Shown here in pieces: positions 33,501 through 58,962 of a stretch of 64,000 bases of DNA; position 1 is the stretch's first letter; each line of letters begins with the position of its first letter. The position numbers and the translations under genes are program-made. The DNA comes from Gossypium raimondii (taxonomy: Eukaryota; Streptophyta; Magnoliopsida; Malvales; Malvaceae), in NCBI RefSeq assembly GCF_025698545.1, contig NC_068576.1, positions 51,990,390 through 52,054,389 on the forward strand, in the 5' to 3' direction. Below the pieces are notes generated by a model. It saw only the letters and a program-made list of their open reading frames with translations. It had not been told where the DNA came from and made no database searches.

Positions 33501-34194
33501 GACGTAAAAGGAAAAGTTGCAGTTATGGTGGATGATATGATTGACACTGCTGGTGAGTGAAAGCAATTTGAACTGTGCAAACATAAACCTGTTCTCAATC
33601 ACAAATACACGTGTAACTTTTGCTTATCATTATGTATTCAATGGTCAAATGGTGGCAAAAAACTCGTTTCTTGCACCTTTTTGTTTTCTCTTTAAAGTTC
33701 TGTTCTCGTCATCTTTTGTAAAGTACTTTTCTTATCCTTTTGGAGAAAATACTTCCATCTGGATTTTCCATGGTTGCCTTGAAAATTGTCTTTTTTGTCC
33801 ATCAGCTGTGTTATAAATTCAATTTATGTTTTACTAGGAACGATTGCAAAGGGGGCAGCACTGCTACACCAAGAGGGGGCGAGGGAAGTTTATGCGTGCT
33901 GTAGTCATGCAGTTTTCAGGTTTAAAATTAATTTTGTTTGGATTAGTGTGTCAGATGTATCAAACTTTTCATGGATATCATTTTGCTAAAATATATATTG
34001 TTTTTCATGGCAGCCCACCTGCAATAGATAGGCTGTCAAGTGGCCTTTTCCAAGAAGTGATCATTACCAATACTCTTCCAGTGGCAGAGAAGAACTACTT
34101 CCCCCAGCTCACAGTTCTCTCTGTGGCTAATCTGTTGGGTGAAACCATTTGGCGTGTTCACGATGATTGTTCTGTGAGTAGTATTTTTCAGTGA
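30573..34194 (+). CDS. PRS1: Ribose-phosphate pyrophosphokinase, probably plastid isoform
   Basis: Makes PRPP from ribose 5-phosphate and ATP for nucleotide, His and Trp synthesis. Eight exons: 30573-30722, 31179-31352, 31936-32184, 32495-32638, 32727-32894, 33483-33552, 33838-33919 and 34014-34194, giving 1218 nt and 405 aa with no break. The first 50 residues are Ser-rich ([20 protein letters not shown]) with few acidic residues, like a plastid transit peptide. Class I PRPP synthetase motifs follow: [73 protein letters not shown] and the PRPP loop [15 protein letters not shown]. The protein ends VSSIFQ. The third intron has a GC donor (AAAG|GCAAGT). Intron 5 holds a dispersed repeat. Similarity to Arabidopsis PRS1/PRS2 is from memory. 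Confidence 0.95.
33113..33320. repeat. CCGGTTC-rich dispersed repeat in intron 5 of the PRPP synthetase gene
   Basis: Contains GTTCTAACTGGTCAGGCC, TCATTAAAAAATTCATAAAA and CTGGTTCCTGGTCTGGTTC, resembling the sequence at 3976-4222. Family unresolved. Confidence 0.4.
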
Positions 34195-37470: not shown

Positions 37471-37497
37471 TAGGGTTTTACCCTGCATTATAAATAT
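37471..37497 (+). promoter_or_regulatory. Telo-box and TATA promoter of the snoRNA cluster
   Basis: TAGGGTTTTA (37471-37480) is an inverted telo-box (AAACCCTA), and TTATAAATAT (37488-37497) follows at once. Telo-box plus TATA is the known promoter layout of plant snoRNA and ribosomal-protein genes. The first snoRNA starts about 85 bases downstream. The cluster therefore looks independently transcribed rather than intronic. Confidence 0.65.
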
Positions 37498-37581
37498 CCT
37501 TTTCGCTGCCCAGCTTCAGCAACTACTTGAGCTTCGTTAAGCTGCCGTCTCTCTAATGTTCCTTTATTTTCTTCTAAAAAT

Positions 37582-37659
37582 AGCGTTGATGAACATCATT
37601 TTGTGTACCAGAGGAGTTTCTGGTGATGGTCACACAATCCCTCTAAGAAGTTCTGAGCT
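37582..37659 (+). ncRNA. Box C/D snoRNA, U61-like, 18S target
   Basis: Box C TTGATGA (37586-37592) and box D CTGA (37653-37656) sit inside an AGC/GCT terminal stem, with an internal C'-like TGATGG. The guide just before box D, TCCCTCTAAGAAG, pairs over 13 bases with the conserved 18S rRNA stretch CTTCTTAGAGGGA. By the box D plus five rule the methylated base is the second U of that stretch, the site homologous to human 18S Um1442 served by U61 (SNORD61). The rRNA sequence and human numbering are recalled from memory. Confidence 0.8.
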
Positions 37660-37740
37660 TACTCATTCCTATTTTTGTTTTAATTTTTTTAATGTTTAAA
37701 ATAAATTTTCTTTGATTTCTTGTAAAAGAAGGGAGAAAGG

Positions 37741-37841
37741 AATAAAAAGCGATGTGATGATAGAAATTCAATGGTCTGTCAATCCACTGATCTAATTTGA
37801 TGTTACATTGAAGTTCCGACAGGTTCTGATCGCTTTTTATT
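37741..37841 (+). ncRNA. Box C/D snoRNA with a 12-bp terminal stem, 18S target
   Basis: A perfect terminal stem AATAAAAAGCGA / TCGCTTTTTATT (37741-37752 and 37830-37841) encloses box C GTGATGA (37754-37760) and box D CTGA (37826-37829). Internal D' CTGA follows AATCCA, and a C'-like TTGATGT comes next. The D' guide GTCTGTCAATCC pairs over 12 bases with 18S GGATTGACAGAC. The predicted methylated base is the first U, homologous to human 18S Um1288. I found no target for the guide before box D (GAAGTTCCGACAGGTT). rRNA was recalled, not searched. Confidence 0.85.
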
Positions 37842-37911
37842 CCCCCTTTCTTCTAGATTTCTTTAAAAAATGATTTTAGGTTTGAACTTGGTTCTACTGA
37901 GTTAATGTTCT

Positions 37912-37999
37912 GGGCATATGATGAATCTCATGTTGTAATGGGTAATTTGCGTCTGAACTAGTATTTCTTGATGCTAAAACACCTTGGAGACCTGATGCC
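37912..37999 (+). ncRNA. Box C/D snoRNA with two guides (18S and 25S), copy 1
   Basis: The stem GGCAT/ATGCC surrounds C box ATGATGA (37918-37924) and D box CTGA (37992-37995), with D' CTGA after TTGCGT and C' TGATGC. The D' guide GGGTAATTTGCG pairs with conserved 18S CGCAAATTACCC. The predicted site is the first A, homologous to yeast Am436 and human Am468. The D guide ACCTTGGAGAC pairs with large-subunit GTCTCCAAGGT, the region modified with U24 in yeast and animals (recalled). A close paralogue lies 335 bases downstream. Confidence 0.85.
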
Positions 38000-38246
38000 A
38001 CTTTTTTCAATGTATTTGGAAACATTATTTTCTTTAGTGATTGAAGCCAGATCTTATGCTTATTTCGTTGGATTCCTTTTTTACTTAGGTTATGATGGTT
38101 TTGCTTATTAGATAGCATATCGCTAAAGGTTTGCTTACATCCTTAAATTAATGTTTCACTTTTTGTACGCTAATTCATTCAAAGCTTTGCTTTTTTATTT
38201 TGTTCGTTTATCAATTCAACAATTGTCCCCTCATGTTTATGTTTTT

Positions 38247-38331
38247 GGGCAACTGATGAATTCCTTTATGCAATGGGTAATTTGCGTCTGATAATCTTTA
38301 CTGATGCTATCACCTTGGATACCTGATGCCC
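38247..38331 (+). ncRNA. Box C/D snoRNA, copy 2 of the preceding gene
   Basis: The stem GGGCA/TGCCC surrounds C box CTGATGA and D box CTGA (38323-38326). The D' guide ATGGGTAATTTGCGT is identical to copy 1, so the 18S site is the same. The D guide has changed one base (CCTTGGATAC against CCTTGGAGAC), which would put a mismatch or wobble in the 25S duplex. This is a local tandem duplicate in which one guide is conserved and the other is drifting. Confidence 0.85.
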
Positions 38332-39160
38332 TTTTCTTGCATTACTTTTAAAGCATTATGTGCTTTGTCTTTTCTAATTTGAATTGCCTTTTGGATCCAT
38401 AATTAGCTTGTCAAGTTGGGTTCAGGTTTTATATCTTATATTTGAGTTATGATTAAGTGTATATCTGTATATTGACTGTATATTGATTCAAAGTGTCATT
38501 GTACTGCATGTGACATCTCCTAATAACTATTTAGCCCCAGTTTTGTTTAAGGGGACCTGTAATACTGAATGGATCCTTAAATGAGTTTGCTGATTTTTTT
38601 TTCTTGAGTTCTAGTCTTCTCCAATGGATTATTAACGGTGTATAATATAATGTCACCTCTTCAGAATTGTGTGCGTTACTTTTTTAATAAACCTTAGTTT
38701 TGATTTATGCTTCTCATGCCTTCTTCAAGACGATCTCTGATTTTGGTCAGATATGCTGTAAATGCTTAATGGATGAGCAACCTTGGCAAGGGGACTCGGA
38801 AGACTTTTTCTCTCGCTTGTAATACGCAATGGCTTGATTATGATATATATTTTTGTTTATTTGCCGAGAAGATCAAGTGTGTAATGTTTTGAGAAACACA
38901 CCAAATTGTATTTGTTCTTTTTATTGCATAGCAATTGGATTTGGTGGTTCTTTACATGTAACTTTTGCAATGAATCACATCCGACCAATTTGCAGGATAA
39001 CGTGCTATAAAACTATATTGAACTTCACTGCTGCCTCTAGTTTCTAATATATCACTGTCAAAAGATAACTTATTTTGAGAAACATAAGCGATTAATTTCC
39101 CTTGGACCAAGATGAATCCATTAAAGCGAAAGAGTTGATACAGTCAACTAAGAATTTAAA
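38332..39160. other. Downstream of the snoRNA cluster, nothing certain
   Basis: No further C/D box pair with a terminal stem was found. This could be the 3' part of the snoRNA precursor and the 3' flank of the minus-strand oxygenase gene that starts at 40657. No exon was recognised. Confidence 0.4.
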
Positions 39161-40657
39161 CTAGAGCTTCAATTTCTTCACCATAAATTTCCCATCAAGC
39201 TTGCTGCTCATCTTCAGTTCCATGAACTCCTGAAATGATACAGTCTTATAAAGTGCCTTGTTGGTCTTCGTAAGATCTGGCAAAGGACCAATCTGGGTAC
39301 ATCTTTTTGGATTGTGAAATGCTGCAATTGACAGCCGCTCTTTTTCCGGATTAACCACAGCTCTGTGTTCTATGCTTTTATATTCTCCATTGCTCATAAT
39401 CTGCATGTATAACATCTTTTCGTTTAGTGGCACTTTACGTATTCAATCAGTCAAGTGTATGGAGTTTCAAGTATTGTTATGCTTGTGTTACCTCCATCAT
39501 GTCTCCAATATTGATGATAAATGAGGCAGGGATGGGTTTAACAGGCACCCATTTCTCATTTCTCTTGATTTGTAATCCTTCAACTTCATTCACTTGAAGC
39601 AAGAGCGTTAAGCCTGTAGCGTCTGAGTGTGGTGCTAGACCATATACCTTGCTTGCCTCTGCACAGGGTGGATAATAGTTCATCCTTATTCCTTGTATTC
39701 CATCCTCAAAAAAGCTTGCAAGCATCTCGGGATCAGTCCCCAGGTTATTGGCCATCAGCTTCATTAGATGAATCATAACCTTATGCAACTCCATTGAGTA
39801 CTTATCAAAACTTGCTCTGAGAACAGAAAAAGTCGCAGACAATTAATGCTAAACCTAGTGGCGAATCTAGGGGTTGGGGGTTAAAAATTTTAAATTAATA
39901 AAAATAAAATTATATTTTTACCCCTAAAATTATAAAAAATTAATTTAATTCTTTAAAAATTATAAAAATATAAACTATAAAAACTTAAAATTTCATTCCC
40001 CTAAAAATTTGTTCTAACTTCTCCTTGGCTATACGCCTATACCCTATTACGGTCATGAAGTTGAAGGGTCAAGAGGGGGTTTATTGATTTACCCGAATGA
40101 AGGGGGGTTGGTCGGCCGGAATCTCGGATCTCTTGTGGACACAGGCAGGCCAAAAAGGAAGAGCATGTCACCCCAATCAAGCTTCTGGTCTTCTGAAAGA
40201 ACGAAAGCTTGACCGTACCCTTCAAGGTAATTTGGTATCTTTGCATAAGCCATTTTCTCCTCCAAGGGCAAGTTGAAGAACTCCTGTGTATCGGTCTTCA
40301 TTTTCTCAATCACTTCATCTGCTACCCCATGGTTGATTAACTGTTGCACCCAACAGTAAGAATGAACTACTGAATCCATAGACGTAAAAAAAGTATAATT
40401 GTGTTTCAATTAGGTACCTGGAAGAAACCCCAGTCTTTGCAAGCCTGGTGGAGTTTTTTCTGTTCATCATGATGGTCTAGTTTGCTCATGTCAATTACAG
40501 GAATCTGCTGGGATTCATCTATGGAAACTACATCGAATTCGACCTCTGGTCTGATGTATCTGGATGGGATTCTGTTGAGGTTCTTGGATGCAAGAGCTTG
40601 GACATTCTCAACTGGTAAAGAATATAACATATCTGTGCTCTGCACTTTTGTTTCCAT
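39161..40657 (-). CDS. SRG1-like 2-oxoglutarate/Fe(II) oxygenase, copy A (intact)
   Basis: Four exons: 40418-40657, 40093-40340, 39492-39816 and 39161-39400, giving 1053 nt and 350 aa, unbroken. The N-terminal DIOX_N region contains VPVxxVQALASKN-type text (LPVENVQALASKN), IPVIDMSKLD, WGFFQ/LINHG and EFFNLPLEEKMAYA. The C-terminal 2OG-Fe(II) domain has the iron ligands His226 and Asp228 (APHSDATGLTLLLQ) and His283 (SIEHRAVVN), and the 2-oxoglutarate RxS motif Arg293/Ser295 (RLSIA). The family (SRG1, norcoclaurine synthase-like and codeine demethylase-like enzymes, DOXC class) oxidises small molecules; the substrate cannot be read from sequence. Intron 2 contains a MITE-like insertion. It is the leftmost member of the tandem array. 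Confidence 0.93.
39858..40033. mobile_element. MITE-like insertion in intron 2 of oxygenase copy A
   Basis: GTGGCGAATCTAGGGG at the left and GTTCTAACTTCTCCTTGGC at the right are diverged inverted ends. The A/T-rich centre (AAAATTATAAAAAATTAATT) resembles the element at 51273-51497. Non-coding. Confidence 0.5.
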
Positions 40658-41554
40658 TGCTGTAAAGCTGTCTCAAGTTAAACACTACCCTCAAATTATG
40701 GTGTTAATGCGCTAGGTAATTTATGCTTTGCTCCTTTTCCATCATTTTCTGTTTTCTAAAATACAGAACACTACCAAATCGTTTTTGTCCTTTGCATGAA
40801 TTATTGAAAAATATATCCTTTTTTAATTATTATTTTCGAAGCTTTTTGTCGCCTTCACTTTGGATCAAATCTTTGGCCATCTGAAACGATCCTGCTCCGA
40901 CAGGCTATAAGCACTGAGAAATTAGAATTGCACACCAATTGTTTAATCAGAACTATTTAATACAATCAATTTTACATAAACTGTTTCTTTGTAGTTCCTT
41001 GAAGACCCTACTTTGTCATTTTCTCGATGAAAATCCTACCATTATGTTAGGAGCTAAACTAAAATTTCTCAGTAATTAGAATAACAGACAGAAAACAATG
41101 AAAAAGAAGATGAAGAGATTTTAAGAATATAAAAATATATATAAAGAAGAGAATGTTTTAAAGGAAAGTTACCTAAAACACGGAATGAAAACAGGAACAA
41201 AAATCTCTAAGTGTTTGGATTCTAATTCAATAAGAGTAGTTTTTCGGAATGAAATAGAATTTTTCTTTTCTTTTAATAAGAATGAAATACGATTTATTAG
41301 AATAGAATATAATTTTTTATAATTTATAATATATAATTTAATTTAATAAAGATACTTCGGTTACAATAGTAAAATTAATTATTTAATATGTTTTATAATA
41401 AATATATTTATAAAAAATTTCATTAAAAATTTATTTGGGTCAAATGAGTTTTTAACTTTTATCAAGATTTTTGTCAATGTAGGGGAATATGTGTTCGAGT
41501 GCTTATATCAGGGGTGGGGAAGTTGAGGTTGAACTGATATGTGACAATATAGAT
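40658..41554. other. Spacer between oxygenase copies A and B
   Basis: The right-hand part of the upstream region (about 40760-41060) is homologous to 48600-48900, upstream of copy B. Shared words include TTTGTCCTTTGCATGAATTA and CCTTGAAGACCC. The interval 41090-41500 is AT-rich with no gene. A SINE-like word (GTTCGAGTGC) occurs near 41490. Confidence 0.5.
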
Positions 41555-41672
41555 AGAAACACTTAAAGCATGTAATTTCTTCAACAATTCCGGTGAATAC
41601 ATTTATATTTCTCTGTCTTAACAATTGATTTTGCAAATGAACTGAAGAAAGCTTCTTCATTAGATGCAAAAG
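41555..41672 (-). pseudogene. Peroxidase last-exon relic 1
   Basis: GTCTTAACAATTGATTTTGC, AAATGAACTGAAGAAAGCTT and CTTCATTAGATGCAAAAG match the 3' end of exon 4 of the intact peroxidase gene (about 57720-57820) in the same orientation. Only about 120 bases remain. It separates oxygenase copies A and B. Confidence 0.7.
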
Positions 41673-41951
41673 TTCATGTTGTTGGAAACATGTCAAATAA
41701 GCTTAATCGATTTTTAATATGATTTTCACAAATTGTTGCATTTCCAGATACAACAATCCTGTTATTTCAAACATTGGAAACAAGTTGCAAAAGAAGAGAT
41801 TTAACATGGACGAAGAGCTAGTAAAGCCAATAAGATTTTTAACTAGAGCTTCATTTGATTCAACATCCCTGGACCTTTCCCGCTAAGCCTCAGTATCAGG
41901 AACTCCTCAAGTGACATAGTCTTGTACTGTGCTTTCTTTGTCTTAACAAGG

Positions 41952-42325
41952 TGATGAACTTTGGCCTGTAATGCAACAACAGACCAACATTGAAGCTGAA
42001 CCAGTGCAGCAACAACATTTTGTCCATATGTAACTTGACTTAGTTCTTTTGTAATTTGTATTTAAAGTTGGTAGGATTAGTTGTTGATTTGTGTTTGATG
42101 TAATAGTTGATATGTAAGCTACATTTTGTGTGTAATTCAAGCTTTGTTTTAGTCAATATATTAGTGGGAGCAGTTATGTATTAGGAATCTATCAATGCAA
42201 CTTATTTGTTCCTGTTATTCTTAATGAAAACATATAAGAAAATCACTTTTCAGATTTCAATCTTTGCTCAATTCTCTTTGAATTCGATTTTATCTTCTTC
42301 TTCTTTTGCTGCCAAAACCTCAACA
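41952..42325 (+). repeat. Copia 5' LTR
   Basis: 374 bp, TG...CA ends, matching 46752-47133 over its whole length. It is followed at once by AATGGT, as expected for the start of a tRNA-Met primer site. Confidence 0.9.
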
Positions 42326-42330
42326 AATGG

Positions 42331-44945
42331 TCTACGATTTCACAAAATGATTTCGTGAAAATTTCGTTCGAAAATTTCGACGTTTGAGCACTCAATTTAG
42401 TCAAAAGGACTAAATTGTAAAAAGTGCAAAAGTTGAGTTCTACATGTTAGAGGTGTCCAATTGTTATGAAACTTTAAATTGGAGGTACTTATATGGAATT
42501 AGACATTGGTTAAGTTGGTAGAAAAAAATGGACATGAGATAAGTGAAATAGAAAATTTTTAAGTTAGGGGCAATTTGGTAATCTAGTAATTAAAATGAAT
42601 TAAAAGGGAAAAAGATGGCAAATTATGCTCATCTTCTTCATTAGGACGAAATCAGCAAGGGGGGAAGCCATAGTTAGGGTTTTCAAGCTTCCAAGCTCCA
42701 TAGTAAGTGATCCCAAGCCCCGTTTTTAATGTTCTTTATGTTTTTGAGATCCCGGTAGCTTAATTTAGCTTATTTTAGCAATAATTTAACCTAGGGTTTT
42801 TATTTGGAAAAATACCCATAGGTGAAAAGTGTTTATTTTGATGTTTTATGATAGAATATGAAGCTATAAATTATGTTAAACAACTTTTGCTAGCCGATTT
42901 TAAGTGAAAACGAGTAAAACGACAAAATCGGTAAAAATACCTAATGTTCATAAGTACATGTTAGAGTGGGAATTGATGTTTCCATAGAAGGGAAAAATGT
43001 TCAGCATGTCATAAAACATAAGAATAAGGGATGAATTTTAATTTCCGAGCCTTGGGGAAAAAATGTAATTATGTAAAAGTTTAGGGGCAAATCGTAATTT
43101 TGAAAAAATTAGAGTCGAGGGCTGTTTTGATGAATGTGAGTATTAAATAAGTTAAATTTGCTATTTTAGATCAAGAAGAACGAAACTCGAGGTTAGACAA
43201 AGGGAAGAATAAAGTTGAAGACTAAGTTGGTGAATTGGACTATATTTGATACCGAGGTAAGTTTACGGTAAATAAATACAATATTTTAATAATTATTATT
43301 AATGTTGTTATTTTCCAGCAATTATATATTTATTTCATGAATTTATTTGATGATGACCCAAGCATAAAATGGTAGAGAATAAAAATTAAAAAGTCCCGTT
43401 GATACATAAGGATAGTATTGGATACAAATGTCATGACATTTGGGTAAAGAGGTCCCATGTAAGACCATGTCTGGGACATAGCATTGGCACCGAGATGAGA
43501 GGTCCCATGTAAGACCATGTCTGGGACATGGCGTTAACACGAGATGAGAGGTCCCTATAAGACCATGTCAGGACATGGCATGGGCACCGAGATGAGAACA
43601 TCCCATGTAAGACCATGTCTGGGACATGGCTTTGGCATGTTATTATCAGAAGAGACCCGAGTATCCTTATTGTTCCAATGTAGCTCTACGGGCTTGTAAA
43701 CGAATCATGTTCATGAAAGTTCAGTTTAAAGCATAAGTGGCAAGCTCAGGTAAGTTATAAGAGTTAAGAACTTATTATACTATCAATTGATGTTCAACGA
43801 TGCAACAAGAGATGAGTAAGTTATGCACACAAGTATTCTAAGTAAATAAGCAAGAGAACTAAAATGAGATTAGCTAAAGAGTAAACTAGAGATATAGACA
43901 CTTGAATTTAATTAATTGTGTTTAATGTTGTTATTTATTTGCTAGTAAACTTACTAAGCTTTATGCTTACTTCTTTTATTTCTTTTTCTCTTATAGTATT
44001 GCAAAGCTACTTCAAGGATCCTAAAGAAGTCGGAGATCGTCCACACTATCAACCACAACTGCTCGGTATTTTATGTCAAAACACGTTTGAGTTATGGCAT
44101 GTATAGGGATTTAGTTATTTTGTATGTTTGTAATGATGATTTTGCTAATGAATGATGTGTAAGCATTTGATGATGTATGGTCATTAAAATGGTTAAGTAT
44201 GAAGGTGTTTGTTGTTATGAAAGATTAGGTGATAAATTATGCATGGAAGTCATGAAAGGATAAAATTTTGCAAAGAAACAGAATTCAGGCAGCACAGTGA
44301 CGTGAATTTGAAAAATCACCTAGGATGGTATAAAATGAATTAGTGGGTGAATGATATATGGAATCAAAGCTTGTTGAGTCTATTTTCATGTAAAAATAAC
44401 TGTGTAACAAAAAGAAATTTATATTTTAAGATATGTGAATTTTAGTGAGACAAAGTCAGAACTTTTTTTGGAGTCCCCTGTTCTGAGTTTAGAAAATAAT
44501 TAAAAATTGTATAAAATGGTTATGAGTTATAGTTTATATTTCTAGATTCCTTATTGAGTCTATTTTCTGTAGAAACAAGTAAGAACTTCATATGAAAATC
44601 CTATAGTGAGAAAATTTATTTTTAGTAACAAGAGGTCAGAACAGTCAAACAGAGAAACAGGGGAGACTTTAACTAATAAACTGTACTAATTTGCTGAACC
44701 AAAAATTATAAAAATTTTATGGTATGTAGATATGAGTCTAGTTTTAGGGAAAATTTACGGAATTAAATTTTGAGTCCTGTAGCTCGAGTTATAATTAATT
44801 TAGTAACTGCTGCGCAATTGGACAGGTTTGCTGTAAATAGTGAAATTAATTTTCAAAGTAAATTTTTAAGCTCCGAATTAGTAAGATAAGCTAAGTAATA
44901 CCTCGTGCTTGACTCCGGAAACGGTCTCGAGTAAGGGGTGTTACA
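42331..44945 (-). mobile_element. Long LTR-type repeat (probably Gypsy) nested in the Copia element
   Basis: Its right end, AGTAAGGGGTGTTACA (to 44945), is the inverse of the TGTAACACCCCTTAC start of the solo LTR at 19753. The adjoining 600 bases (GACTCCGGAAACGGTCTCGA, then GAGTCTATTTTC words) are also homologous to it. The left part (CTACGATTTCACAAAATGAT onward) is typical of long cotton LTRs. The left boundary is not certain. No coding domain was seen. Old and incomplete. Confidence 0.6.
43430..43640. repeat. Tandem repeat with GACATGG palindromes inside the nested LTR
   Basis: Four units of about 55-60 bp containing GGTCCCATGTAAGACC, CCATGTCTGGGACATGG and GCACCGAGATGAGA. The CCATGTC-TGG-GACATGG core can form a hairpin in every unit. 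Part of the LTR. Confidence 0.85.
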
Positions 44946-45347
44946 TTTTGGTGTGAAAATGCTGTCTAATTTGGTATATAAATGCTGTCCAAAATTAATG
45001 TATATGAGCTGTCCAAACAGAGTAGATTACCTATGTTGTAATATGTAGTATAGTTAGTAAATTGAAATGAAATAAATGTTTGGATATATGCTTGATTTAT
45101 GATATTAAATTTTGATTAGGTAAATGATAATGATATGGTTGAGTTGTTGAAACATGATTAGTATATGAAATTTGATTAATGATGCATGTTTGATTTTAAT
45201 TGGTTATGTGATAATATATATATGGAATGAAATTTCACGGTTGAGTTAGTATAATTTAAAAAAAAATAAAAAAATTTCTGAGTTGGGTTTTGATCGGTAA
45301 TGCCTCGTAACTCTAATCCGATGACAGACACGGGTCGGGGTGTTACA
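44946..45347 (-). mobile_element. Head part of a second LTR-type repeat
   Basis: It ends CGGGTCGGGGTGTTACA (to 45347). The inverse, TGTAACACCCCGACCCG, is the start of a related LTR subfamily. The preceding repeat appears to sit inside or against it. Copia reverse-transcriptase sequence resumes immediately after. Confidence 0.55.
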
Positions 45348-45350
45348 GAA

Positions 45351-46710
45351 GTGGGTGTTTAGGGTCAAATACAATGCTGATGAGACTCTAAACAAACACA
45401 AGAAAAGACTTGTGGTGAAGGGATACAACCAATAATATGGGATCAAATTCATTGAAACCTTTGCTCCTGTTGCAAGGTTAGATACAATAAGACTTCTGTT
45501 TGCCTTGGCTGCTCAGAAGCAATGGAGAGTGCATCAGCTAGATGTCAAGTCTGCTTTTCTGAATGGCTTCCTCAAGGAAGAAATCTTCATTGAACAACCA
45601 GAAGGGTTCAAGGTTTCTGATGAAGAGGACAAGGTCTACAAGCTTAAAAAGGCCTTGTATGGTCTGAAGCAGGCCCCCAGGGCTTGGTATGATAGGGTTA
45701 ATGCATAGTTTAGGCTCGGGTTCGAGAAGAGTGTGAGTGAGCATACTCTTTATATGAAGAAATTAAAGAGTGAAACCCTGCTGATTGTGTCACTTTATGT
45801 GGATGACTTGCTCGTAACTGGAAGCAAGAAGGAGCTGATTAATGAGTTTAAAATGCAGGTGCAAGATGTTTTTGAAATGACTGACTTGGGGGAAATGACA
45901 TATTTTCTTGGTATGGAAGTAATTCAGACTGATCAAGCTATCTTGATAAGTCAGCAGACTTTTGCTTTGAAGATCCTAAACAAATTTTGCATGTCAAATT
46001 GCAAAATTGTTAGCACACCAGTGGTTCAAGGTGAAAAATTAACCAGCAATGGCAACCATGAAAGAGTTTATGAAAATGAGTATAAAAGCCTTGTAGGATG
46101 TCTGCTCTACTTGACAACTACAAGACCTGATATCATGTTTGCTGTTAGCCTTCTATCCAGATTCATGCATTGCTACGATGTTGTTCATTTTAAAGCAACC
46201 AAAAGAGTTCTTAGATATGTGAAAGGGATTTTGGATTATGGAGTGAAGTTTGAAAAGGCAAAAGAGCTCAAGCTGATAAGGTATTCTGATAGCGATTAGG
46301 CAGGTTCCATCGATGACATGAAGAGCACTTCTGGTTATTTCTTCACTCTTGGGTCAGGGGTCTTTTGTTGGAGTTCAAAGAAGCAACAAACTGTTACTCA
46401 ATCAACAGTTGAAGCATAGTAAATTGCAGCTGCAACAACTGTTAATCAAGCCATTTGGCTTAGGAAGCTCTTGTGTGATTTGAATGAAGATCAAGTTGAA
46501 GCTACTGAAATTAGAGTTGACAATCAGTCAGCTGTTGCCATAGCAAAAAATCCAGTATTTCATGGCAAGACCAAGCATTTTAAGATTAAATTTCATTTTG
46601 TTAGAGAGGCTGAACAATCAAATGAGGTTAATCTAACTCATTGCAGCTTAGAAAATCAGTCTACTGATATTCTAACTAAGTCTCTTGGTGCTAAAGATTT
46701 GAGAAGTTAA
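45351..46710 (+). mobile_element. Copia reverse transcriptase and RNase H remnant
   Basis: Recognisable Ty1/Copia blocks in order are the RT words [20 protein letters not shown] and LYVDDLLVTG, the connection region, and the RNase H words VDNQSAVAIAKNPVFHGKTK and STDILTK. Same strand as the LTRs. Broken in several places; a fossil. Confidence 0.9.
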
Positions 46711-46751
46711 GAAGAAATATTGGTGTTTGTTGCATACAGTCCAATGAGGAG

Positions 46752-47133
46752 TGATGAATTTTGGCCTGCAATGCAACAGCAGACCAGCATTGAAGCTGAA
46801 CCAGTGCAGCAACAACATTTTGTTCATACGTAACTTGACTTAGTTCTTTTGTAATTTGTATTTAAAGTTGGTAGGATTAGTTACTGATTTGTGTTTGATG
46901 TAATAGTTAATATGTCAGCTACATTTTGTCTGTAATTCAAGCTTTGTTTTAGTCAATACATCAGTGGGAGCAGTTATGTATTAGGAATCTGTCAATGTAA
47001 CTTATTTGTTCCTTTTATTCTTAATGAAAACATACAAAAAAAATCAATTTTCAGATTTTAATCTTTGCTCAATGCTATTTGAATTCGATTTTATCTTCTT
47101 TTCTTTTTTGTTTTTGCTGCCAAAACCCCAACA
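46752..47133 (+). repeat. Copia 3' LTR
   Basis: 382 bp, TG...CA ends, preceded by a short purine tract (ATGAGGAG). Pairs with the 5' LTR at 41952-42325. Confidence 0.9.
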
Positions 47134-48336
47134 CAAGGTCTGCCAATGGTCCAATCTTAGTACCTACTTTCGAATTGTGAAATGCTGCCATTGACAGTCG
47201 CTCTTTCTCCTGATTCACCACAACTCTATGTTCTATGCTTCTCTATTCTCCATTGCTCATAATCTGTATTCATAGAATCTCTTCACTTCGAGGCACATTA
47301 CATATACAATCCATCAAGTCTAAAGTCTGTATGTAGCTTCAAATATTGTTATGTTACCTCTATTATGTCTCCAATATCGACGATCAATGCACCAGGGATG
47401 GGTTTAACAGACACCCATTTTTCATCTGTCTTGATTTTTAATCCTTCATCTTCATTCACTTGAAGCAATAGTGTTAAGCCTGTGGCGTCAAAGTGTGGAG
47501 ATGCACCCAATACCTTGCTTGCCTCTACACAATGTGGATAATAGTTCATTCTTATAACTTGTGCTCCATCCTCAGAAAAGCTTGGAAGCATCTTAGGATC
47601 AATCCCCAAGTTCTTGGCAATCCGTTTAATGAGATAAATTGTAACCTTATGCAACTCCGTCGAGTACTTGTCAAAGGTTTTTCTGAAAACAATTCAAGTT
47701 ACAGACATCCTAATACGGTCATGAAGTTGAAGGATCATTATTGTCTATTGATTTACCTAAAGGAAGGGGGATTGGTCGGCCATAATCTTATATTTCTTAA
47801 TGGCACAGGCAGGGGAAAAAGACAGAGCATGTCATTCCAATCTAGCTTCTGATCTACCGACCTTACCAAGGTTTGACCGTAACCTTCAATCTCATTTGGT
47901 AGCTGTGCATAAGCCATCTTCTCCTCCAATGGAAACTTAAAGAACTCTTGAGTGTCAATCTTCATTTTCTCAATCAGTTCATCTGCTATCCCATGATTGA
48001 TTAACTGTTTCAACGTCAATAAAGATGAACCACTAAGTCCATTGATGTAAAAAAAAAAAGTTATTGTTCTTTAAGAATTCTGTTTCAATTAGGTACCTAG
48101 AAGAAACCCTAGTCTTTGCAAGCCTGGTGGAGTTTTTTCTGTTCATCACCATGATCTAGTTTGCTTATGTCAATTACAGGAATCTACTGGGATTCATCTA
48201 TGGGAACTACTTCAAATTCGATCTCAGGTCTGATATATCTGGATGGGATGTTCTTTAGGTTCTTGGATGCAAGCGCTTGGACACTATCAACAGGTAAAGA
48301 ACCAGCAAATGCTCTGCTCACCACCTTTGTTTCCAT

Positions 48337-49135
48337 TTCTGTGAAGCTGTTGTTGGAGAATATGGATAATTACATGGGTTAGCCCAAATTAAAATGATCT
48401 AATTTGGTTAAAGTTTTATTAGGTTTTAATTATTAAATAAAGTATGAGTCAAATATGTGTAAATACTCTAATCTTTTTGCTTGTTATCCATCATTTCTAA
48501 TTTCTATAATACAGACGCCTCCTAACCACTTTTGTTTCCATTGCCGTAAAGCTGTCTCAAGTTAAACAGTACGCTCAAATTATAATGTTAATGCATTACT
48601 TATTGAAAGGATATAAAACCACCAAACCGTTTTTGTCCTTTGCATGAATTATTGAAAAATATGTCCTTTTTTAATTTTTATTTTCGAAGCTTTTTGACTT
48701 TCACTTTGGGATCAAATCTTTGGAAATCTGAAACGACCCTGCACTAATGCCGACAGGCTATAAACACTGAGAAATTAAAATTGCACACCAATTGTTTAAT
48801 CAGAACTACTTAATATAATCATTTTTACATCAACTGCTTCTTTGTAGTTTCTTGAAGACCCTGCTTTGTCATTTTCTCGAACAAAACCCTACCATTCTAT
48901 TACGAGCTAATCTAAAATTACTTAGTAATCAGAATAACAGACAGAAAACAATGAAAAAGAAAAAGAAGATGAAGAGATTTTAGAGAAGACAAAAAAAAAA
49001 AAGAAAGAAAAGAGAATGTGTTTAAAGCAATGTTAGAATGAAATACAATTTTCTATTCTTTTAATAGGAACAGAATATGATTTTTATAATTTATAATTTA
49101 ATTTAATACAGATACAAATACTTATTTGCAGCAAC
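48337..49135. other. Spacer between oxygenase copies B and C
   Basis: Homologous to the spacer right of copy A (40680-41060), including GCATGAATTATTGAAAAATA and ACCAATTGTTTAATCAGAAC. It is therefore part of the duplicated unit. No gene was seen. Confidence 0.55.
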
Positions 49136-49345
49136 AAATTCTTTCTAATTTCTCTAACAATTTCGGTAAATAAATTTATATTCCCGTCTTAACAATTGAT
49201 TTTGCAAATGAACTGAAGAAAACTTCTTCATTAGATGCAAAAGCCCAAACCAACTTTATTATCTCCCCTTCATGGTCTAACACCATTAACAGATCATAAA
49301 AATCCATTTCCTTCAAAAGTGTTAATGTTAGCTTAGATTTTAGGA
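49136..49345 (-). pseudogene. Peroxidase last-exon relic 2
   Basis: About 210 bases align with peroxidase exon 4 at 57710-57920: CTTAACAATTGATTTTGCAA, then ATGAACTGAAGAAAACTTCT, CCCAAACCAACTTTATTATC and CCTTCATGGTCTAACACC. Same orientation. The reading frame is lost. It lies between oxygenase copies B and C. Confidence 0.85.
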
Positions 49346-49554
49346 GTTCATTTGGGAGTATGGGTCAAACGCTATTTAGGAGTTCCATGCAGTTGGAAAC
49401 ATGTCAAATAAGCTCAATCGATTTTAAATATAGTTTTCACAAATTGTTGCATTTCCAGATACAATAATCCTGTTATTTCAAACATTGAAATCAAGTCGCA
49501 AAAGAAGAGATTTAACATTGGACGAAGAGCTGATAAAGTCAATAAGATTTTGAA

Positions 49555-50857
49555 CTAGAGCTTCATTTGATTCAACAAATGTTTCCCTTGAACTTTCCTG
49601 CTAAGCCTCAGTCTCAGAAACTCCTCAAGTGACATAGTCTTGTACTGTGCTTTGTTTGTCCGAACAAGATCTGCCAATGGTCCAATCTCGGTACCTGCTT
49701 TCGGACTGTGAAATGCTGCCAACGACAGCCGCTCTTTCGCCTGATTCACCACAACTCTATGTTCTATGCTTTTGTATTCTCCATTGCTCATAATCTGCAT
49801 TCATAGCATCTCTTCACTTCGAGGCACATTACATATACAATCCATCAAGTCTAATGTCTGTATGTAGCTACAAATATTGTCATGTTACCTCTATTATGTC
49901 TCCAATGTTGACGATCAATGCTCCAGGGATGGGTTTAACAGGCACCCATTTCTCATCTTTCTTGATTTGTAATCCTTCAACTTCATTCACTTGAAGCAAC
50001 AGTGTTAAGCCTGTGGCGTCAGAGTGTGGAGATGCACCCAATACCTTGCTTGCCTCTGCACATGGTGGATAATAGTTCGTTCTTATAGCTTGTGCTCCAT
50101 CCTCGAAAAAGCTTGAAAGCATCTCAGGATCAGTTCCCAAGTTCTTGGCAATCCGATTAATGAGATAAATCGTAACCTTATGCAACTCCGTCGAGTACTT
50201 GTCAAAGGTTTCTCTGAAAACAACTCAAGTTACAGACATCCTAATACGGCCATGAAGTTGAAGGATCATTATTGTCAAGTTACCTGAAGGAAGGGGGATT
50301 GGTCGGCCAGAATCTTATATTTCTTAACGGTACAGGCAGGGGAAAAAGAAAGAGCATGTCATTCCAATCTAGCTTCTGATCTGCCGACCTTACCAAGGTT
50401 TGACCGTAACCTTCAATCTCATTTGGTAGCTGTGCATAAGCCATCTTCTCCTCCAATGGCAACTTAAAGAACTCTTGAGTGTCAATCTTCATTTTCTCAA
50501 TCAGTTCATCTGCTATCCCATGATTGATTAACTGTTTCAACGTCAGTAAAGATGAACTACTAAGTCCACTGATGTAAAAAAAAGTTATGGTTCTTTAAGA
50601 ATTCTGTTTAAATTAGGTACCTGGAAGAAACCCCAGTCTTTGCAAGCCTGATGGAGTTTTTTCTGTTCATCATCATGATCTAGTTTGCTCATGTCAATTA
50701 CAGGAAACTGCTGGGATTCATCTATGGAAACTATAAATTCGACCTCAGGTCTGATATATCTGGATGGGATGTTCTTCAGGTTCTTGGATGCAAGTGCTTG
50801 GACACTATCAACAGGTAAAGAACCAGCAAATCCTCTGCTCACCACCTTTGTGTCCAT
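49555..50857 (-). CDS. SRG1-like 2-oxoglutarate/Fe(II) oxygenase, copy C (intact)
   Basis: Four exons: 50621-50857, 50284-50531, 49889-50213 and 49555-49794, giving 1050 nt and 349 aa, unbroken. Exons 2-4 are the same lengths as in copy A. Key residues are present: His225 and Asp227 (SPHSDATGLTLLLQ), His282 (SIEHRVVVN), and Arg292/Ser294 (RLSLAAF). N-terminal words are SLPVDSVQALASKNLKNIPS, FPVIDMSKLD and FKLPLEEKMAYAQLP. Copy B is its closest relative in the window. Substrate unknown, as for copy A. The residue before NYYPPC reads T where copy A has M. Confidence 0.93.
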
Positions 50858-51127
50858 TTCTATCTGAGAAATTTTTTTATCTGTTTATATGCTAAATGCT
50901 ACTCTAATATGATACATCATTTTATTATCCATCATTTCTAATTTCTATAATGCACCTTGCACAAATTCCACTTGATAAAAAGGAAAGGCCATAAAGATTA
51001 ATTGCACAGCAATTGGCTAATCACAAAGATATAATACAATTAACTTTTTCATTAAACAATTTCTTAGTAGGTCTCTTGATGGCCCTAGTTTGTCATTTCT
51101 TGAGCAAACCTAAGGTCTAAGGGTTAA
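50858..51127. other. 5' flank of oxygenase copy C
   Basis: Short upstream region related to the other unit spacers (ACAATTTCTTAGTAGGTCTC, CCCTAGTTTGTCATTTC). Probably carries the promoter. No gene. Confidence 0.45.
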
Positions 51128-51565
51128 GAAACCTACCATTCTTTCTGATTTCTCCTTCAATTTCATTGAGTACACTATTTCACCATTGTAACACTTGATT
51201 TGTGAAATGAACAAAATGAAAGTTCTTGATTAGATGCAAAAGCCCAAACCAGCTTTTATTATCTCCCCTAAGGGGCGTAGCTAGGGCCATAGTTAGGGGA
51301 GTGATAGGTGCCTCAACCCGGAAAAAAAAATTACTTTGACCTTTTAAAACTTTAAAAATAAAATTATACTTTGGTCCTTCCTAAAAATGATCAAAGTTTA
51401 ATTTAATCCTTAAAAGATATAGACAATTAAAATATTCGTAAAAATTACAATTTAATTTCAGTCCTCTTAACAAATTTTCTAGCTTCGCCCTGCTCGCCTT
51501 CATGGTCTATTGTAACTTTAACACTATTGGATCATAACAATCCATTTCCTTAAAAATGTTAACAA
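51128..51565 (-). pseudogene. Peroxidase last-exon relic 3, split by a MITE
   Basis: 51128-51270 matches peroxidase exon 4 (CATTCTTTCTGATTTCTCCT, ATGCAAAAGCCCAAACCAGC). After a MITE at 51273-51497 the match resumes with GCCTTCATGGTCTATTG and ATCATAACAATCCATTTCCT. Same orientation as the intact gene. It lies between oxygenase copies C and D. Confidence 0.8.
51273..51497. mobile_element. MITE inserted in peroxidase relic 3
   Basis: Inverted ends GGGGCGTAGCTAGGG and AGGGCGAAGCTAGAA (read inward). The A/T-rich interior has TTTAAAACTTTAAAAATAAA and no coding sequence. A related copy is in intron 2 of oxygenase A. Confidence 0.65.
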
Positions 51566-52078
51566 GGACAAAGAGCTGATAAAGTGAACTAAGATTTTGA
51601 ACTAGATCTTCATTTGATTCAACAGATGTTTCCCATCAAGCTTGCTGCTCAGCTTCAAGTTCAGGAACTCCTCAGCTGGTATAGTATTATATAGTGCTTT
51701 GTTGGTCTTAAGAAGATCTGGCAAAGGGCCAATCTGGGCATTCTTGTTTCCATAGTGAAGTGCTGCAATTGACAGCCGCTCTTTCTCCGGATTAACCACA
51801 GCTCTATGTTCTAAGCTTTTATATTCTCCATTGCTCATAAGTCATAATATGCATGTACAACATCTTTTCGATTAGTGGGCACTTCACATATTCAATCAGT
51901 CAAGTGTATGGAGTTTCAAGTATTGTTATGCTTATGTTAACTCCACCATGTCTCCAATATTGATGATAAATGCGGTAGGGATGGGTTTAATAGGCACCCA
52001 TTTCTCATTTCTCTTGATTTGTAATCCTTCAACTTCATTCACTTGAAGCAAGAGCGTTAAGCCTGTAGAGTCTGAGTG

Positions 52079-52535
52079 TGTTGGTGTTTTTTGTACCGAG
52101 AGATCAGAACAAAGATAAGCAAAGAGAACACTTAGCAGATAGAATGAACTGCTTGTATATTCATCATCTTTTTCATTCCAAAAATTTACAATATATAAGT
52201 GAAATGGTTACAAGTTATCAACTAATCCTACCAAAACATTTTGGAAAAGTAAAAATAAAACTTGTACACGAACTAATTTGTCAAATCAGTATCTAAAAAC
52301 ATCATTTTAATACTAATTCTGCTTGTTTCAACAAGTCAATTTTAAGTAACAGATTTAACAAAAACATCAATTCCAGCATGTGCAAACCTTGCTCGCACTT
52401 CATTTGGGGGTTTGCCAAAACCCTTGACAGCTCACACTTTGATGAGCTCGTAGCTTTGTTTGAGCTCGTAACTTCAAATAAGCTCGCATATTTGTGACTT
52501 GAGTTCGTCATTGCATGAATGACCACTTCGCAACA
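52079..52535. mobile_element. Solo LTR (probably Copia) in exon 3 of oxygenase copy D
   Basis: 457 bp starting TGTTGGTG and ending CGCAACA, flanked by GAGTG (52074-52078) and GAGTA (52536-52540), a near-perfect five-base duplication. No coding sequence. Orientation unknown. Confidence 0.65.
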
Positions 52536-53707
52536 GAGTATAGTAATGTACCATATACCTTGTTTGTCGGCTATTTTACCCATTTGACCTAAAAAAATAA
52601 TATTTACTCAAATGACCTGAAATGAACAGTAAAATTAGATTATGGGAACTAGATGGCCGACACCACTATTTTTTTCTATTAAAAAAATAATTTTTGAGGT
52701 TTTGAACACTAGATGGCCGACACCCATATATTTAAAAATAAAAATAAAAATTGGGGTGCTGACACACTGATGGCCGGCACCCCTTTATCTAATTAAAAAA
52801 TAATTTTTTAGGGGTGTGGTGCCGGCCAACAAATGGCCAAAATCACCCAACAAAAAAAGATTAGGAATATTGCAACATAACCCCTCCTTGTTTTTCCATC
52901 TTTTTTATTTCCCAAGTGTAATTACATATTTTATATTTTAAAACAATATTGAACTACTTGTCATGTTTTTTAATTATTATTGCATTACTCACATTATTAT
53001 TAAATTTAAAAATTAATTTAAAATATATTGAACTATATATTTTATAAATATATTACTCGTTAGTTTTTAAAATAAAAAAACAATAATTTAGCAATGTTTA
53101 TTTGAATTATTATAAAAGATGAAAATCATTAAAGAATATTCAAAATTTATCAAAAAACATATAATTTAATTGTGCATATTAAATTTAAATTAAATTTAAA
53201 TTAACTACTTTTGATTTGAAAATTAACTAATTTAGTATCAATTACTGTCATTTTGGATACTGTATTTAGCATTTTAATATATTTTCACAATTATAAAATT
53301 CAATATTAAAATTAATAAATAGTTTTAAAATACTTTAGTTTGAAGTTCTTAAATAATATATTAAAATAAGATAACTTTAATAACTTTTATCAAAACCACC
53401 TCCAAACAATTATCATTACATTTAAAAATAAATATAATTTTTAGACTTAATTTATTATTTATACTTGAGTTTAACAACAATCAAGTTGCATTTAACAAAA
53501 TAAAACAAAAATTAAAAAAATCATGAAAATTCAAATATGATGAGGAAATTCAATCATGAAAATTTTAAATTTAATAATAATGTGAGTGATGCAATAATAA
53601 TTAAAAAACATTATAAGTAGTTCAATATTGTTTTAAAATAAAAAATATGTAATTAAACTTGGGAAATAAAAAAGATGAGAAAACAAAGAGGGGTTATGTT
53701 GCAATAT

Positions 53708-56257
53708 TGTAACACCCCTAACCTTTATCCATCGCTAGTACAGAGTTACAGAGCATTACTAGACTTTTCAGATCAAATACAAACATTTCATATCATTTAA
53801 CATACATAACATACTTTCAAGGCTCAGAATACACATTAGAAATAAATCGAGACTAAACCGAGTACTCAGAAAATTTTTCAAAAAATATAAAAAAATTTCA
53901 AAAGAGTAGGGGACACACGCCCGTGTGGCCAGACCGACGCCTGTGTCTCAGGCCGTGTGGGCTGTCGAAATAGGGGTACACGGTTGTGTCCCAACCCGTG
54001 TCCAATTTAGGGTGCTTATTGACTTGGGTCACACAACCAAGCTACACGCCTGTGTTCTAGGCAGTGTGAGTATACTGACTTGTAATATTAAAGTCCAGGG
54101 GTCACACGGCCAAGCCACACGCCCGTGTGCTAGGCCGTGTCAAAAATCCTAGGTATTCTGTTTTACAATTTAATAGATGCAGGGGATATAAGGCCAAACC
54201 ACACACCCGTGTGTTAGGCTGTGTGTCACACACGACTAAGACACACGCTAGTGTCTCTGCTCGTGTGGATGAAAATATGCTCTTTTCAAGTCACATTTCT
54301 CACCCATTTTTTATTTCAACCTAAACACTTAAATTTGCACACTCATATGCCATAACAAAACCTTCAATACAACCAAATCAAGTTTTAAACATATCATATT
54401 ATCAAATTTATTCAACATTCAAATCTACCATATTGATCAAAGCATATATTTGCATATTTATACCAAACATACTATACTATCTCATTCACCAACATGCCTA
54501 TAAACTATTCATCACTTAACCACATCAAACATATATCAAGCATGATAAGACCACATATACATATATAAGTTGATTGTAAATATAAACAAAATGTAATTTC
54601 ATAATATTTAAACAAACCAACTTTAATCAAATCCACACCAATCCTATACATGCCATATAAACCATAGTGTACGTTTCAAAAACTACCGGAATAAGCTGGA
54701 TAGTGTGACTTGATGTGCTGATCCGATCTTCCAACCTCTCGAAAATCTACAAAGACATTAACCAACATGAGTAAGCTTAATGAAACTTAGTAAGTTCGAT
54801 GGATTAAACATAAATCTTACCGAACCTACTATAACAGATCAATTAAATAAATTCATTCAATGTAAACTCCCTGCCAATCGCAACTTCACTCGATGAATAC
54901 ACTTATTTCAGATCAATATCAATAACAAACAATATGTCTTTCAATTTTAATTATATATTCACTTACCAAATCTTCCCAAATCGGAGAACGGCTTACAGAT
55001 AAGAGTACATCTTTTTCAGAAGCCCGAAAGCTGAATAGAAGCTCATGGGAGCTAAACAGAAACCCATAAGGGTTGAACGGAAGCTCGTAAGAGCTGAATG
55101 GAAACTCATAAGGGTTAAATAGAAGCTCGTGAGAGCTAAACGAAAAGTAAACACGAAAGTTTGCAACAAATGCTGAACCTCGGTTTACTTGGGTAAATTG
55201 GCTGTCATTTTCCCCTAACGCTGTCAATTCGCCAAATGCCGAATATACTCAAATCCTGCGTTCCATTCAATCCAAATATCAAATTCAAATTTATAACTTT
55301 AACAATATTTCATTTTCAACAATAGAATAAATACATAATACCATTCATCAATTCAATATAAATATTAAAGTTTAACCATACGAACTTACCTGGGTTAAAT
55401 TGTAATATTTGCAGGATTTTGGAGACTATTCTGCTAATTTTTTTTCATGAGTATCTATGGGATATTGATCTAAAATATAAAATTATTCATTCATTAGCAT
55501 ATATTTCAGTTCTAATTCAATTCAAAATTAATACCCTTCTATTTTTTAATTTACACAATTACCCCAAACTTTCTCGACTTTTACAATTTAGTCCTTAACT
55601 AATTAATCTTATCAAATTAACTAATTTTTTTCTCAATTAATAATTTATCTAAATATTCTAGGCTATCATACAGCTCTTGATAAAATAAAAATTTAATACC
55701 AAACCCTAATTCTTTAATTTTTCACAATTTGATCCTAAAACAATATTTAACAAAATCACTTTATTCATCTAAAACATCTAATACTTATCAATGGAAACTT
55801 TCAAAATTTTTAATAAAATTTTCACAAATGGGCTTTATTAACTCTTTAAATCCTCCCATATTTACCATTTAAGTCATTTAATCACTATTTATTATAATTC
55901 ACAAGTTTTGTACCTTTTTAATTTAGTCCTTTTTAATTAATTAACTATCAAAACGTTAAAATTTTCTATCAAAACTTTAATACTACCTTAATGACACTCC
56001 GTAAATACTTAGAAAAATATTTACGGCTCGATTTATAGAAACGAGGTCTCGATACCTCATTTTCTAAAACCACTTGACCTAGAATTTTACTACTCGAACC
56101 TAATAATTCATTATAAAACTTAAATTGCGAGTTCAAAAATATTTCTAAAACCACATTTGACTCATAAATACTAAATAATAAAATTTACGACCTTATTCGT
56201 AGAATTTAGTGGCCTCGAACCACTGTTTTCGACACTACTGAAAATCAGATTGTTACA
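53708..56257 (+). mobile_element. Solo LTR (probably Gypsy) inside the fold-back element
   Basis: Runs TGTAACACCCC...TTGTTACA, about 2.55 kb, flanked by AATAT (53703-53707) and ACTAT (56258-56262). The site can be read against the uninterrupted left arm of the fold-back element. No coding domain. Its 3' portion (GAGGTCTCGATACCTCA, GTGGCCTCGAACCACTG) resembles that of the solo LTR at 19753, so the two are related subfamilies. Confidence 0.8.
53910..54280. repeat. ACACGCCCGTGTG palindromic repeats within the solo LTR
   Basis: CACACGCCCGTGTGGCC, AGGCCGTGTGGGC, GTCACACGGCCAAGC and close variants recur about every 35-60 bases. The words are self-complementary (CACACGG/CCGTGTG). This is a well-known look of long cotton LTRs, from memory. 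Confidence 0.85.
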
Positions 56258-56952
56258 ACTATTCCCAATCTTTTTTGTTCGGTGATTTTGGCCATTTGTT
56301 GGCCGGCACTCCACCCCCCAAAAAAATTATTTTTTTAATCAGATAAAGGGGTGCCGACCACCAAAATTTTATTAAAAAAATACATGGGTGCCGGACATCT
56401 AGTGTCCAAAACCCCAAAAATTATTTTTTTAATAAAAAAATAGTGGTGCCGGCCATCTATTTCCCATAACTTAATTTTACTGTTCATTTCAAGTCATTTG
56501 GGTGAATACTTTTGAACCAGAGTAATTTTTGTAAATATTAATTTTTTTTAGATTAGATGAATAAAATAGCCTTGTTTGCCTCTGGACAAGGTGGAGTTCA
56601 TCCTTATTCCTTGTGTTCCATCCTCAAAAAATCTTGCAAGCATCTCGGGAACAGTCCCCAAGTTGTTGGCAATCAACTTCATGAGATGAATCATATCCTT
56701 ATACAACTCCATTGAGTACCTATCAAAACTTGCTCTGAAAACAGCATAAGTTGCAGACGATTAATGCTATACCCTATCACGGTCATGAAGTTGAAGGATG
56801 ATTACTGATTACCTGAATGAAGGGGTATTGGTCGGCCAGAATCTCATATTTTGCAAGGGCACAGGCAAGGGAAGAAGGAAGAGCATGTCGCGGCAATCAA
56901 GCTTCTGGTCTTCTGAAAGCACGAAGGCTTGACCATAGCCTTCAAGGTTGTT

Positions 56953-57693
56953 TGATGTAAAAATTATAAATTTATCATTCAACTATTTGAATTAAGTTCC
57001 TAACTGACATTGTGGAGATGAGTAAATTTATAATTTGATTACTCAACTATTAATAAATTTACAATTTAATCTTTTTCAACGATATTTAATAATTCTTACA
57101 TTGAAACAATAAGTTAATTTATGTTGTCTCAAGATCTTAGGTTTTTCTTTTCTTTTAATATTTCACCTTTCAAAAATAATCAATTAATCAAATAAAACGT
57201 ATGCGCGAAAAGAAGAATTGATGAATTATATAAAGAAATAAGAAGTCCTTAATTACAAGACAATCTAGTAGCATGTTTCTTTAGTTATTAATTGGATACA
57301 ATAATGATGATAAAAGTGATATAGATAATTAATTGCTAAACAAGAAGGAAATTAGTCACTATGAAGAAGGGTGTTTTTTTCATATTAATGGTGAGAATGA
57401 AATCAACGAAACAAGATAAAACTTCAAATTGTAAATTGCAAAATAAAAGCCGAAAAGGTTAGTCAGCCCCTGTTTTTTGAATTGCAGCATCCAACTTTTG
57501 CTGAAGGAGGTGTTTAAGAGGCTAATGATCAGTTTTGATGGTGAATATGGGGCATATATTGTTTCTCATAGATTGAGAGATCACAAGTGCTGTGGTCCAA
57601 AACTACTGGTTAATCATAACACTACTTGATACAAATACTTTTACATCAAACTGTTTCTTTGAAGGAGCTACTTGGTCATTTTCTTGCTAAGGC
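56953..57693. other. Spacer between oxygenase copy D and the peroxidase gene
   Basis: AT-rich, no exon. The last 100 bases (ACTGTTTCTTTGAAGGAGCT, TTGGTCATTTTCTTG) correspond to the spacers right of copies A and B, marking the unit boundary and the 3' flank of the peroxidase. Confidence 0.5.

Positions 57694-58962
<1,269 letters not shown>

Follow-up and report, generated by a model that had tools for sequence, protein, structure and literature searches.

A box C/D small nucleolar RNA (snoRNA) cluster that holds U61 together with snoR14 is described in rice as 'cluster 49', with an Arabidopsis counterpart printed as 'U61-U14.1-U56' in the excerpted source (PMC5122169). We analyzed a related locus in a 64,000-nucleotide stretch of Gossypium raimondii (NC_068576.1, positions 51,990,390 to 52,054,389; hereafter the window), which looks like an ordinary plant gene cluster of four small RNAs predicted to guide the chemical marking of ribosomal RNA (rRNA). 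As in the rice and Arabidopsis cluster, to the extent that the excerpt describes it, U61 and snoR14 stand together; in the window they are followed by two tandem copies of snoZ101, whereas the third Arabidopsis member, compared by name alone, is named differently. The one local peculiarity is that the last member occurs a second time, with slight changes. Rfam matches, a comparison of the three paralogous loci, the promoter motifs, the surrounding genes and the complementarity to rRNA all support a polycistronic box C/D snoRNA cluster with its own transcription, both transcription and methylation being predicted.

A preliminary description of this DNA had proposed four C/D units on one strand and suggested an Rfam search. 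All four units lie on the forward strand, and in that search every one reached the gathering threshold of its named family. The hallmarks of the class, namely C box, CTGA D box and terminal stem, could be read in the sequence. U61 (37581-37660; C box 37586-37592, D box 37653-37656) scored 55.9 bits against a threshold of 55 for RF01170 and has a terminal stem of only 3 bp; its box D guide (37638-37652) is predicted to target 18S rRNA at the position of Arabidopsis U1384. snoR14 (37749-37833; C box 37754-37760, D' 37787-37790, D 37826-37829) reached 96.8 bits (RF01280, threshold 40) and is closed by a 14-bp external stem with arms at 37739-37752 and 37830-37843. Its D' guide (37773-37785) is predicted to target 18S U1235, its D guide (about 37811-37824) 25S U803. 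The first snoZ101 copy (37910-38003; C box 37918-37924, D' 37953-37956, D 37992-37995) carries guides for the predicted sites 18S A440 (D', 37939-37952) and 25S C1860 (D, 37980-37991). Its tandem duplicate (38244-38334; C box 38253-38259, D' 38288-38291, D 38323-38326) retains an intact D' guide (38274-38287), while its D guide has a mismatch at d+3; the two copies scored 81.3 and 72.9 bits against a threshold of 44 (RF00358). The number of units initially proposed thus stands, with the units now identified as U61, snoR14 and snoZ101 twice. The guide list needed correction, as the third and fourth units are tandem copies with an identical 18S guide, and the second snoR14 guide, to 25S U803, had been missed.

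With this guide, five rRNA sites are predicted in total, and they correspond to 2'-O-methyl positions mapped in Arabidopsis (PMC8053127). Both predicted snoZ101 targets equal those of Arabidopsis SnoR15, 18S A440 and 25S C1860 (PMC8053127, Table 1); from targets alone, the two names would denote the same RNA. Complementarity to rRNA lies directly 5' of box D or D', as would be expected of guides for the predicted methylation. It was assessed on one 25S copy (L038) and two 18S copies (L018 and L040) of this genome, with shuffles and other CTGA sites scored against the same targets as controls. These copies were selected for holding the sites, so the choice favors the guide reading. The guides match the selected copies. 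Among the ribosomal DNA (rDNA) copies inspected, we could show for none that all five sites are retained. We searched this genome for an intact rDNA unit and found none: one pattern had no match, and the others led to divergent copies. An 18S majority sequence built from 13 rows (12 distinct copies, since L016 and L023 denote a single locus) was no help at the snoR14 site, GGATTGACAGA, which only two of these rows, L018 and L022, retain. Two further copies beyond those rows also keep GGATTGACAGA, and the Rfam eukaryotic consensus contains it; copies on C47 and C217 keep GGATTGACAGACC. The 154-base spacing first given for two of the sites refers to human 18S; Arabidopsis numbering gives 149, a value found in one of eleven 18S copies here, the other ten showing 145-147.

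Many rDNA-like copies in the assembly, among them L022, L023, L027-L031 and L038-L040 (on C171, C5, C47, C48, C74, C269, C2, C12 and C11), differ strongly from one another or from the consensus where the sequence is otherwise conserved. The full-length matches to 25S scored 1739 to 2441 bits, and others lie in pieces. Such copies may be pseudogene arrays or reflect assembly damage.

Two paralogous clusters of the same genome, on C8 (L024) and C2 (L025), share the unit order, the telo-box and TATA box and most guides with the window; the C2 flanks were assessed by blastn over 9.8 kb, the tblastn view covering the first 80 of 128 rows. The window locus could be a decayed, silent duplicate whose snoRNAs are supplied by C8 or C2, but we consider this very unlikely. 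The window snoR14 is the best kept of the three (96.8 versus 83.0 and 64.5 bits): both of its guides are present and its box D reads CTGA, whereas the C8 copy is one base short in box D and the C2 copy lacks its D' guide. Moreover, the units are conserved while the spacers between them drift. In the region preceding the C2 cluster, at a distance of about 2.8 kb, L025:7647-7788 gave a marginal match to the MIR7502 precursor (71.2 versus 71 bits).

A telo-box and TATA box just upstream of the cluster, as first described, are present at all three loci. In the window, the telo-box lies in reverse orientation (AAACCCTA, minus strand, 37471-37478; TAGGGTTT on the plus strand) 110 nt upstream of U61, and the TATA box (TTATAAA, 37488-37494, plus strand) 92-93 nt upstream. 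The corresponding positions are -110/-92 in C8 and -115/-96 in C2, both with TATAAATA as TATA box. The exact telo-box sequence is not rare, with eight occurrences in the window; the evidence is therefore the position common to three loci rather than the motif. In the excerpted account of plant snoRNA promoters (PMC4660826), a telo-box and a Site II element precede the TATA box, and a rice locus missing one of the two motifs, the telo-box, is also described. No Site II element (TGGGCY) occurs within 1 kb upstream at the window locus (C12), C8 or C2, so that of the TeloSII pair this plant snoRNA cluster has the telo-box alone.

Alternatively, the cluster could belong to the PRPP-synthetase-like transcript upstream, as part of an intron or of the 3' untranslated region, and have no promoter of its own. 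This gene is on the same strand, and three of its four exon pieces gave matches to Pfam Pribosyltran and Pribosyl_synth (E 6.8e-6 to 3.5e-5), each slightly under the Pfam cut-off, as expected of exon pieces. Its last matching piece, ending near 34191, already reaches domain position 183 of 184 and is directly followed by an in-frame stop at 34192, 3.4 kb before U61; together with the promoter motifs kept at all three loci, this renders such a host highly improbable. The downstream gene (39164-40672; 2OG-FeII_Oxy and DIOX_N above the Pfam cut-off in all four pieces) lies on the opposite strand. Consequently, no protein host gene was found, in agreement with the initial claim. Similarly improbable is a stable snoRNA-containing long RNA (sno-lincRNA), like Arabidopsis lncCOBRA1, that serves some purpose besides methylating rRNA. 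A transcript that combines two snoRNA domains with a telo-box promoter has been reported (PMC9175010). Here, however, the guides are conserved and fit methylation sites already known, and nothing points to a long-form role, although such a form could coexist with normal processing.

Downstream of the cluster, sequence similar to one 2OG-Fe(II) oxygenase gene recurs along the minus strand of the window (39134-57000). It forms a tandem array, some of whose copies are partial, at, among the matches listed, about 39.1-40.7, 41.8-41.9, 47.1-48.3, 49.5-50.9, 51.6-52.1 and 56.6-57.0 kb. Within it lies a copia-like retroelement piece (RVT_2-type reverse transcriptase, 45709-46296, plus strand), and a plant peroxidase exon (Pfam peroxidase) occupies 58420-58656 on the minus strand.

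Together, these findings give a plant genome a well-supported snoRNA cluster along with two paralogous ones. Without implying a new mechanism, they provide a small natural case of duplicated guide RNAs losing or splitting their guides.
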